NCBI GenBank assembly: GCA_020056225.1
Contig: JAGVIE010000006.1
Coordinates: forward strand, 1 to 64,000
Direction: 5' to 3'
Length of the DNA: 64,000 bases
DNA from: Bacteroidota bacterium
GTDB lineage: Bacteria; Bacteroidota; Ignavibacteria; UBA10030; SZUA-254
Positions 53,735 through 55,389 of this stretch are shown piece after piece (positions within the stretch are counted from its first letter, which is position 1; each line of letters starts with the position of its first letter). The notes beneath the pieces were generated by a model. The model did not search any database. It had not been told where the DNA came from and saw only the letters and a program-made list of their open reading frames with translations. A program made the position numbers and the translations under genes.

Positions 53735-54643
53735 ATGAAAATTATCGTTGCAGGCGGCAGTGGATTCATCGGGTCCGAACTAATCCGAAGATTGGTGGAT
53801 GCCAAACACGATGTTGTTTTACTTAGTAGAAATCCCGGCGCTGTTCGTTTACTTGAGAGCGCTTCGCTCAAAATTGTGCGATGGGATGGGAAGACTATTG
53901 GATCATGGTCGCAATTCATCGATGGCGCCGATGCAGTTGTCAATCTCTCGGGGGAAAATATAGCGGCAAAACGCTGGAGTGATTTACAAAAAACCCGGCT
54001 GATCAATAGCCGGATTGACCCCACCCGCGCGATCCTCCAATCAATTAACAAATCAGCGAAGAAGCCGGGAGTCCTAATCAATGCTTCTGCAGTAGGATAT
54101 TACGGCAATTTCGGTGACGGTGATGTAACTGAGACTCAAGCTAAAGGTGAAGGTTTTCTTTCAGACTTATGCGAGCAATGGGAACGTGAAGCATTGTCTG
54201 CCGAAAAGCACAGACTGCGGGTTGTTTTGTTGAGAATCGGGATTGTGCTTGAACCCTCAGGCGGTGCGTTGAAAAAAATGCTGTTGCCCTTTAAATTGTT
54301 TATCGGTGGACCGCTTGGCTCAGGCAAACAGTGGTTCCCGTGGATTCATCGTGAGGATGTCATAAATATTATTCTCTTCGCGCTTGAAAAACAATCACTA
54401 TCGGGTGCGGTCAATGTCGCATCGCCGTCACCAGTAACTATGAATGAGTTCTCTTCTCTGCTTGGGAAAGCGATAGGGCGGCATTCCTGGATACGCGTGC
54501 CGTCATTTATGTTAAAGCTGATGTTAGGAGAAATGTCTGAAATGCTTATTGGCGGAAGGCGAATCATTCCAAAGAAATTAGTAGATCATGGTTTTGTGTT
54601 TAAATATCCAACCCTCGATGAAGCGTTATCTGTTTTGATTTAA
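53735..54643 (+). CDS. SDR39U1/TIGR01777-type epimerase-like protein
   Basis: 302 residues with GGAGG before the ATG. Rossmann start VAGGSGFIGSELIRRL, then VVNLSGENIAAKRW, NASAVGYYG and ERWEREA-like QWEREALSAE, as in the YfcH/SDR39U1 group. The C-terminal DUF1731 part has VPSFMLKLMLGEMSEMLIGGRRI. The physiological substrate of the family is poorly known. It stands alone between the rnhA pair and the tRNA region. Confidence 0.9.
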   Translation: MKIIVAGGSGFIGSELIRRLVDAKHDVVLLSRNPGAVRLLESASLKIVRWDGKTIGSWSQFIDGADAVVNLSGENIAAKRWSDLQKTRLINSRIDPTRAILQSINKSAKKPGVLINASAVGYYGNFGDGDVTETQAKGEGFLSDLCEQWEREALSAEKHRLRVVLLRIGIVLEPSGGALKKMLLPFKLFIGGPLGSGKQWFPWIHREDVINIILFALEKQSLSGAVNVASPSPVTMNEFSSLLGKAIGRHSWIRVPSFMLKLMLGEMSEMLIGGRRIIPKKLVDHGFVFKYPTLDEALSVLI

Positions 54644-54668
54644 AGGAAAGAGCAGTAATTATAAATTG

Positions 54669-54780
54669 TGGGTGCTGCGGGGATCTCCGCCAGAGGCGGA
54701 TGCGCCTTCGGCGCAGAACCTGCGACCTTCCCGTCTCGTTCTACCGAACGAGACGGGACGCTCTGAACCATTTGAGCTAC
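54669..54780 (-). pseudogene. tRNA pseudogene with hairpin insertions and no 5' acceptor strand
   Basis: Reading the minus strand: the D arm GCTC...GAGC, variable AGGTC, T arm and 3' acceptor AGCACCC match the neighbouring tRNA-Val. A 30-base block of two small hairpins (54686-54715: TCCGCC-AGA-GGCGGA and TGCGCC-TTC-GGCGCA) splits the T loop exactly; removing it restores the tRNA-Val sequence. The anticodon arm is a 13-bp hairpin (54729-54758). The 5' acceptor strand is replaced by the end of the GIY-YIG gene. It cannot be a working tRNA. Confidence 0.8.
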
Positions 54781-55022
54781 ATTTTATTGATGATTGTTTC
54801 TATATATTTCTTACTCTTGCGGTTTTTAATATATCTTTCACGAAGTGCCGCTTCGCTTCTAGTTTGATATTCTTCGAAGTAGACCAACTTCCATGGAATA
54901 CCGCGCTTAGTATAGTTGACTTTTCCTGAGTTGTGATATTTTAATCGGGATTGTAAGTTGTTAGTCTGACCGACGTAGTAGGATGAATCTTTCTCGCTCC
55001 GCAAAATATATGTGTAGAACAT
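54777..55022 (-). CDS. GIY-YIG nuclease-family protein
   Basis: 81 residues, a stand-alone GIY-YIG domain: MFYTYILRSEKD and SSYYVGQTNNLQSRLKYHN (the YVG part with the conserved Arg), then WKLVYFEEY and RSEAALRERYIKN with the catalytic Glu. The start chosen is the Met before the domain; a longer reading would run through the tRNA-Val sequence. It begins 5 bases beyond the tRNA-Val 3' end and its stop codon lies in the D arm of the tRNA pseudogene. Family members include homing endonucleases and UvrC-like nucleases. The placement between tRNA copies suggests a mobile or tRNA-site-specific unit. Confidence 0.85.
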   Translation of the reverse strand: MFYTYILRSEKDSSYYVGQTNNLQSRLKYHNSGKVNYTKRGIPWKLVYFEEYQTRSEAALRERYIKNRKSKKYIETIINKM

Positions 55023-55027
55023 ATCAG

Positions 55028-55102
55028 TGGGTGCTGCGGGGATCGAACCTGCGACCTCCGCCTTGTAAGGGCGGCGCTCTGAACCAGCTGAGCTAAGCAC
55101 CC
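55028..55102 (-). tRNA. tRNA-Val (anticodon TAC)
   Basis: 75 nt. Acceptor GGGTGCT/AGCACCC with discriminator A, D stem GCTC/GAGC, anticodon stem CCGCC/GGCGG with loop CTTACAA (TAC), variable AGGTC and T arm GCAGG-TTCGATC-CCCGC with one A-C mismatch. It appears functional and lies between the GIY-YIG gene and a second damaged tRNA. Confidence 0.92.
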
Positions 55103-55114
55103 GATAATATTTTG

Positions 55115-55197
55115 TGGACGCTGCAGAACCTGCGACCTTCCCGTCTCTTTTCAATGAAAAGAGACGGGACGCTCTGAACCAGCTGAGCTAAGCGTCC
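55115..55197 (-). pseudogene. Damaged tRNA-like sequence with hairpin anticodon arm
   Basis: Acceptor GGACGCT/AGCGTCC pairs perfectly and the D arm is intact. The anticodon arm is replaced by a nearly perfect 31-base palindrome (55139-55169) starting TCCCGTCTC and ending GAGACGGGA. The T arm lacks about six bases (GCAGGTTC then TGC). No readable anticodon remains. Its anticodon stem ends equal those of the pseudogene at 54669-54780, so both probably derive from one tRNA or one insertion type. Confidence 0.75.
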
Positions 55198-55216: not shown

Positions 55217-55313
55217 TCCCGTTTCGTTATCGGCAGATAACGAAACGGGATTCTCAAAATGACGGATAACTTAACTTCTCCGCTTTGCGGTATCGTTAAG
55301 TTATGTCATTTTG
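55217..55313. repeat. Two palindromic hairpin elements
   Basis: First: TCCCGTTTCGTTATC, loop GGCA, then its exact complement (55217-55250, 15-bp stem). Its ends match the hairpins inside the two damaged tRNAs (TCCCGTYTC...). Second: CAAAATGAC and ATAACTTAAC at 55255-55275, inverted at 55295-55313, with a small CCGC-TTT-GCGG hairpin in the middle. These look like small palindromic repeat elements lying between tRNA genes. Confidence 0.8.
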
Positions 55314-55317
55314 GAAG

Positions 55318-55389
<72 letters not shown>

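Follow-up and report, generated by a model that had tools for sequence, protein, structure and literature searches.

What is a gene for a short GIY-YIG nuclease doing between a working tRNA-Val gene and a broken copy of the same tRNA? The gene lies in region 54669–55197 of the window, the whole 64,000-nucleotide stretch of DNA that was analysed. A sequence-only reading of this region had proposed a small homing or transposing unit that targets tRNA genes and duplicates them. The proposal was evaluated at the locus itself, in the rest of the genome, in related genomes and across the phylum.

The tRNA-Val locus and its nuclease gene

The locus and its surroundings contain the following features.

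53735–54643, convergent: epimerase-like gene beyond remnant B
54668–54779, minus strand: remnant B, a copy of tRNA-Val that lacks the 5' acceptor strand and runs from the D arm to the exact 3' end
54686–54715, no strand: two adjacent 15-bp hairpins (a doublet) that split C56 from G57 in the T loop of remnant B
54729–54758, no strand: palindrome TCCCGTCTCGTT..AACGAGACGGGA in the anticodon arm of remnant B (30 bp, 13-bp stem)
54777–55022, minus strand: GIY-YIG nuclease ORF of 81 amino acids matching PF01541, from the ATG at 55022 to the TAG stop at 54779–54777
55027–55102, minus strand: intact tRNA-Val(TAC), found by ARAGORN and Rfam, with acceptor GGGTGC/GCACCC
55114–55197, minus strand: remnant A, a copy of tRNA-Val with acceptor GGACGC/GCGTCC, both strands kept
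55139–55169, no strand: palindrome TCCCGTCTCTTTTCAATGAAAAGAGACGGGA in remnant A (31 bp, 14-bp stem)
55217–55250, no strand: third member of this palindrome family, located between remnant A and tRNA-Gly (15-bp stem)
55317–55389, minus strand: tRNA-Gly(CCC), found by ARAGORN and Rfam, the ancestral neighbour of tRNA-Val(TAC) in relatives

Along the minus strand, the order is thus tRNA-Gly(CCC), a palindrome, remnant A, intact tRNA-Val(TAC), the GIY-YIG ORF, remnant B and the epimerase-like gene. The 3' end of tRNA-Val is followed by TGAT and then by the ATG at 55022, so the gene starts 5 nucleotides past the tRNA, as the sequence-only reading had stated. That reading had also put the stop codon in the D arm of a damaged tRNA lacking its 5' acceptor strand, and a second damaged tRNA on the other side; both placements were borne out. 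The D-arm sequence TAGCTCAAATGGTTCAGAGCG of remnant B opens with the three bases of the TAG stop. This remnant shares its exact 3' end with the intact tRNA-Val (GATCCCCGCAGCACCCAC), and nucleotides 17–28 and 46–76 of the intact tRNA are repeated exactly within it. In remnant A, a palindrome takes the place of the anticodon arm and the T arm is truncated; its acceptor is that of the working tRNA-Val in most relatives. The intact tRNA-Val(TAC) is the single full-length match of its kind in its own genome (G000). Besides the tRNAs, no intron or other Rfam match was found in the window. Unlike in an att-flanked integrative element, the GIY-YIG ORF stands alone between the tRNA copies, with no integrase.

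The 81-residue protein matched PF01541 with an E value of 1.7e-19 and 70.3 bits (cut-off 22.6). The GIY-YIG domain spans residues 1–73, with no separate DNA-binding region, and its catalytic residues are conserved, Y4, Y15, G17, R25, H29 and E61 being invariant among 18 relatives. The ORF lies outside any intron or intein. The nuclease is under purifying selection: similar copies gave a median dN/dS of 0.14, with values below 1 in 36 of 36 informative pairs, many of which came from arrays. The longest frame of the nuclease (125 amino acids, 54777–55154, minus strand) uses a TTG start and reads back through tRNA-Val into remnant A. This frame gives the nuclease a false N-terminus, and gene callers are likely to attach such tRNA-derived N-termini to nucleases of this kind.

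Association with tRNA genes, exact tRNA ends and tRNA identity

About 110 loci from 40 related genomes were picked by GIY-YIG score alone, blind to tRNAs. In the GIY-YIG group that includes the window's nuclease, 58 of 74 members have a tRNA no more than 200 bp away, without exception on the same strand, compared with 0 of 45 members of other short GIY-YIG clades in the same genomes. When 119 short GIY-YIG proteins were placed on a tree, those linked to tRNAs grouped together, and the 45 formed the two large remaining clades. The link to tRNA genes, on which the earlier proposal hinged, was therefore found among the homologues. Strand was invariable: wherever a tRNA lay within 200 bp of an ORF in the 40 genomes, it was on the ORF strand (65 of 65).

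Moreover, in 50 of these 65 cases the sequence beyond the ORF carries a repeat of at least 18 nucleotides of the same tRNA; with shuffled flanks the average was less than 2 nucleotides, and the reverse-complement control never exceeded 11. Two arrangements were distinguished, type A (intact tRNA, ORF, remnant) and type B (remnant, ORF, intact tRNA), and the copy beyond the ORF either starts in the D arm and reaches the exact 3' end or covers nucleotide 1 to about nucleotide 30–50. Gapped mapping of 77 remnants from a wider set placed the end at the exact tRNA 3' end in 45 of 54 type A remnants and the start at exactly nucleotide 1 in 22 of 23 type B remnants. Duplication of the target, as first proposed, is thus partial: the second copy is a broken fragment that ends exactly at one tRNA end, not a working tRNA.

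The tRNA isotype is clustered on the tree, with 14 changes against a shuffled mean of 37 (minimum 31 in 200), and the A/B arrangement is not (15 changes vs. 18.5), on a tree that has few columns and in which some neighbours share a locus by descent, such as the Gly-Cys-Leu-Val cluster of L045, L063 and L101. Lineages for Pro-CGG, Pro-GGG, Ser, Asn, Asp, Ala, Leu-CAA, Cys and Arg therefore recur across families of the order, and several of them carry both placements. As judged from this tree, the nuclease lineages are specialised for a tRNA identity; the targeting claim of the earlier reading stands as an association with tRNA genes, but with a preference for one identity per nuclease lineage instead of tRNAs at large. 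The element nearest in protein to that of the window (L080 in G020) adjoins a tRNA-Val(TAC) whose sequence is broken by a run of N, probably because the assembly has a gap at a repeat.

Further loci were found in the same genome, where nine GIY-YIG matches comprise one long UvrC-like frame (643 amino acids) and eight short genes. The order of intact tRNA, ORF and hairpin-bearing remnant occurs at tRNA-Val, tRNA-Asn (two tandem copies of a 378-bp unit) and tRNA-Pro(CGG); one further short gene lies 115 bp after tRNA-Ser, and three have no tRNA. Four of the eight short genes follow a same-strand tRNA at a distance of at most 120 bp (p ~2e-11, computed for 44 tRNAs in a 3.5-Mb genome). Separately, short same-strand tRNA fragments adjoin tRNA-Ala(CGC), tRNA-Thr(CGT) and tRNA-Phe (L252, L253 and L011) with no nuclease gene; these fragments are probably scars of lost elements.

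A scan of named genomes with the single protein returned ten loci, nearly all from Bacteroidota. A domain was recognisable in nine of them, and in eight of the nine a tRNA on the same strand lies no more than 165 bp away. A profile search across the phylum found a match in 94 of 148 genomes, in loci showing the same pattern, with tandem arrays of up to eight units. The single-protein scan of public contigs returned no viral contig, and phage and plasmid records held only distant relatives of about 46% identity at most, so that no vector was found.

The sequence-only reading had called for alleles without the gene and with one intact tRNA, and such alleles, with a clean tRNA, are present at tRNA-Val(TAC) in relatives. 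Among the approximately 30 relatives examined at the orthologous gene, alleles were clean, carried a frameshifted ORF (G021) or a truncated ORF, or retained scars only. The truncated ORF (L155 in G011) lies in an insert of 149 bp, and the sequences on either side of this insert match those of the clean allele in a same-genus genome (L153 in G003). Filled and empty alleles of a target locus also occur at tRNA-Val(GAC), which is filled in L045 and empty in L063 and L101. In addition, scarred genomes have more GIY-YIG genes than clean ones (p=0.01, with counts entered by hand). In another relative (L174 in G022), a tandem array of 5' tRNA-Val fragments with hairpins lies upstream of tRNA-Val(TAC), with no nuclease gene.

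Each remnant was also compared with tRNAs of its own and other genomes. The remnant is closer to its own resident tRNA than to that of any other genome in 67 of 68 informative cases, so a tRNA piece imported from far away is not needed. The match could reflect mostly within-species transfer, target duplication on insertion, or gene conversion keeping the copies alike, and the data choose none of these. The window, with its intact GGGTGC and relic GGACGC acceptors, had raised the idea of an element that carries a foreign tRNA; given the resident match, this is not general. The GGGTGC acceptor is also present without scars in G002 and G034.

Taken together, we regard it as probable that the gene is a minimal selfish element resembling a homing endonuclease, which would live on tRNA genes, with a tRNA identity specific to each lineage, and keep one tRNA copy intact.

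Hairpins, palindromes and alternative explanations

The remnants are rich in hairpins. When the perfect hairpins of the 64-kb window are ranked by length, three of the top five fall in the 54669–55197 stretch. Among remnant insertions of at least 8 nucleotides, 69 of 94 have a perfect stem of at least 5 bp, compared with 15% in shuffled sequence. Their positions are uneven: the T loop has 25 insertions against 9 expected, and 19 of these fall exactly between C56 and R57; the anticodon loop has 19 (9 expected) and the acceptor strands have none (14 expected). Both the anticodon arm and the T arm are free of hairpin insertions in 8 of 77 remnants; in the three of these that were read closely (L083, L106 and L137), a hairpin of about equal length replaces the anticodon arm.

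Short hairpins of the T-loop type (TSCGCCNNNGGCGSA) occur at 31 places in the genome, often as doublets of 15+15 bp (L239–L258), and some of them lie in the scars beside tRNA-Ala(CGC) and tRNA-Thr(CGT). At least two (L244 and L256) lie inside long reading frames, near apparent C-terminal sorting domains. Rickettsia palindromic elements, short dispersed palindromes as well, offer a comparison. By eye, the sampled insertions often seem to fall between TTY and RAA, as the T loop offers. Because such hairpins are found elsewhere in the genome, part of the remnant decoration may be secondary, and the idea that a hairpin marks the cut site is weakened. Two explanations of the hairpins remain, namely selection silencing the spare copy, or free palindromes inserting into tolerated targets.

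Palindromes also accompany GIY-YIG genes that have no tRNA. A sister clade of the tRNA group (L085, L088, L093, L105 and L110) has its ORF flanked by short inverted repeats CCCGTGAGATA..TATCTCACGGG, and in two of its members a tyrosine-recombinase gene is interrupted by the ORF. The genes of the other short GIY-YIG clades are surrounded by the common bacterial palindromes GTCATTCCCGCGAAAGCGGGAATCC, GTCATTCTGAGCGAAGCGAAGAATC and CACCCTGAGC..TCGAAGGGTG, which flank the ORF on either side (L001, L004, L007, L040, L041, L061, L077, L090, L113 and others); these clades may supply the enzymes behind such repeats. Near outgroup GIY-YIG ORFs there are 0.5–0.7 hairpins per 250 bp, compared with 0–0.13 farther off. 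We tentatively entertain, with considerable doubt, that short stand-alone GIY-YIG proteins form a general class of bacterial selfish nucleases that live in and spread palindromic DNA, with one large branch in tRNA genes, whose arms are palindromes, split by tRNA identity, and sister branches in intergenic palindromes or integrase genes.

These patterns bear on an alternative in which the GIY-YIG protein mobilises palindromic repeats, as RAYT does for REPs, so that the remnant hairpins would be the real mobile cargo and tRNA genes would be targeted because their arms are palindromes. Such a mobiliser would fit the hairpins at the centres of the T and anticodon arms, the inverted repeats of the sister clade and the palindromes around the outgroup genes. 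However, the long palindromes form a family of exactly three in the 3.5-Mb genome, every one of them at the tRNA-Val locus, and most of the short-hairpin copies that were sampled lie at a distance from GIY-YIG genes. The exact tRNA ends of the remnants and the tracking of tRNA identity by nuclease lineage would also be left unexplained, and at the tRNA loci no inverted repeats bracket the ORF. We therefore consider this alternative unlikely.

A role on RNA appears very improbable. The nuclease would then serve or poison the host, for example by cutting tRNA or tRNA-like transcripts, with the hairpin remnant as a decoy or regulator. This would agree with the same-strand placement inside tRNA units in all cases and with purifying selection; it does not account for the patchy presence between relatives, the decay of ORFs to scars or the formation of arrays, the sequences and placements of the remnants are too varied for a single RNA role, and short GIY-YIG domains are known as DNA nucleases. 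Finally, tRNA 3' ends are classical integration sites, but it is scarcely credible that the gene is an ordinary passenger of hot spots of integration or tandem duplication at tRNA ends, since the insert is a few hundred base pairs without an integrase, and the association is repeated at tRNAs of many identities, is confined to one GIY-YIG group, always keeps to one strand, whether upstream or downstream, and tracks tRNA identity.

Proposed mechanism and known systems

For the selfish, homing-endonuclease-like element, we propose the following course. Its sole gene, encoding the 81-residue nuclease, would be transcribed with the tRNA, in whose transcription unit it lies on the same strand. Insertion would duplicate part of the tRNA and leave the ORF between two tandem copies, a complete one that keeps the cell alive and a partial one interrupted by hairpins. 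We infer that the nuclease cuts the cognate tRNA gene in chromosomes without the element and that the break is repaired from the element-bearing copy, the flanking tRNA copies serving as short homology arms. The repair product would be tRNA-ORF-remnant or remnant-ORF-tRNA. Hairpins in the spare copy may block re-cutting or recombination with the good copy, unequal exchange could produce tandem arrays, and loss of the ORF would leave tRNA scars.

Some points argue against the selfish element. The intact tRNA leaves the presumed target beside the gene, and the avoidance of self-cutting has no explanation. The bare GIY-YIG domain is without the added DNA-binding region of known homing endonucleases, so recognition of tRNA identity also lacks an explanation. 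Furthermore, the remnants match the resident tRNA and not that of a donor.

We know of no tRNA association described for UPF0213 or YhbQ-like proteins, and of no established biological role for them. By sequence, these short GIY-YIG proteins are the nearest solved relatives (PDB 1zg2, 1ywl) and share the length and domain of the nuclease. A literature search of open-licence papers yielded no description of GIY-YIG genes that have inserted at tRNA genes in bacterial chromosomes, and the family of tRNA-gene elements is apparently undescribed so far.

REP/RAYT systems (PMC2817692, PMC3116915) share the scattering of short palindromes through a bacterial genome, including some inside reading frames. 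Their enzyme is an HUH tyrosine transposase between inverted palindromes, whereas here the enzyme is GIY-YIG and the hairpins are inside broken tRNA copies.

SegB of phages T4/T6 is a homing endonuclease whose free-standing GIY-YIG gene lies, like the present one, among tRNA genes (PMC2988022, PMC13096335). It is reported to cut within tRNA genes at the motif RAWTSGAAC (PMC13096335), to drive tandem amplification of a tRNA segment, to lie often near tRNAs in phages and to have no isotype preference (PMC2988022, PMC13096335). The motif is the complement of GTTCSAWTY, the T-arm sequence split by T-loop hairpins here; this agreement is suggestive only. In contrast to SegB, the present genes lie in bacterial chromosomes, encode a bare 81-residue domain, keep to one tRNA identity per lineage and have a partial, hairpin-bearing tRNA copy on their far side.

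The mitochondrial mORF gene hybrids of Allomyces atp6 and of Glomus atp6, atp9, cox2 and nad3 (PMC3630166) likewise have an endonuclease gene between a functional gene and a displaced duplicate of its end, the duplication keeping function. The endonuclease ORF beside a duplicated target end, with one copy functional, is present here as well. The hybrids involve protein genes of fungal organelles and a foreign inserted gene end; here the targets are tRNA genes, the copies match each other and the end is not a foreign one, the remnant fitting its own tRNA best in all but one of the informative cases. As the added DNA-binding region that defines SegB and the foreign gene end that defines the mORF hybrids are both absent, the element is best described as a variant working like them and not as a member of either.

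If this reading is true, the element would be among the smallest selfish genes known, a single bare nuclease domain that targets essential tRNA genes across a bacterial phylum. Since its lineages track tRNA identity, target recognition by a minimal GIY-YIG domain becomes testable. The reading would also explain tRNA pseudogenes and scars, and would give a lead on the enzymes that go with widespread bacterial palindromes.
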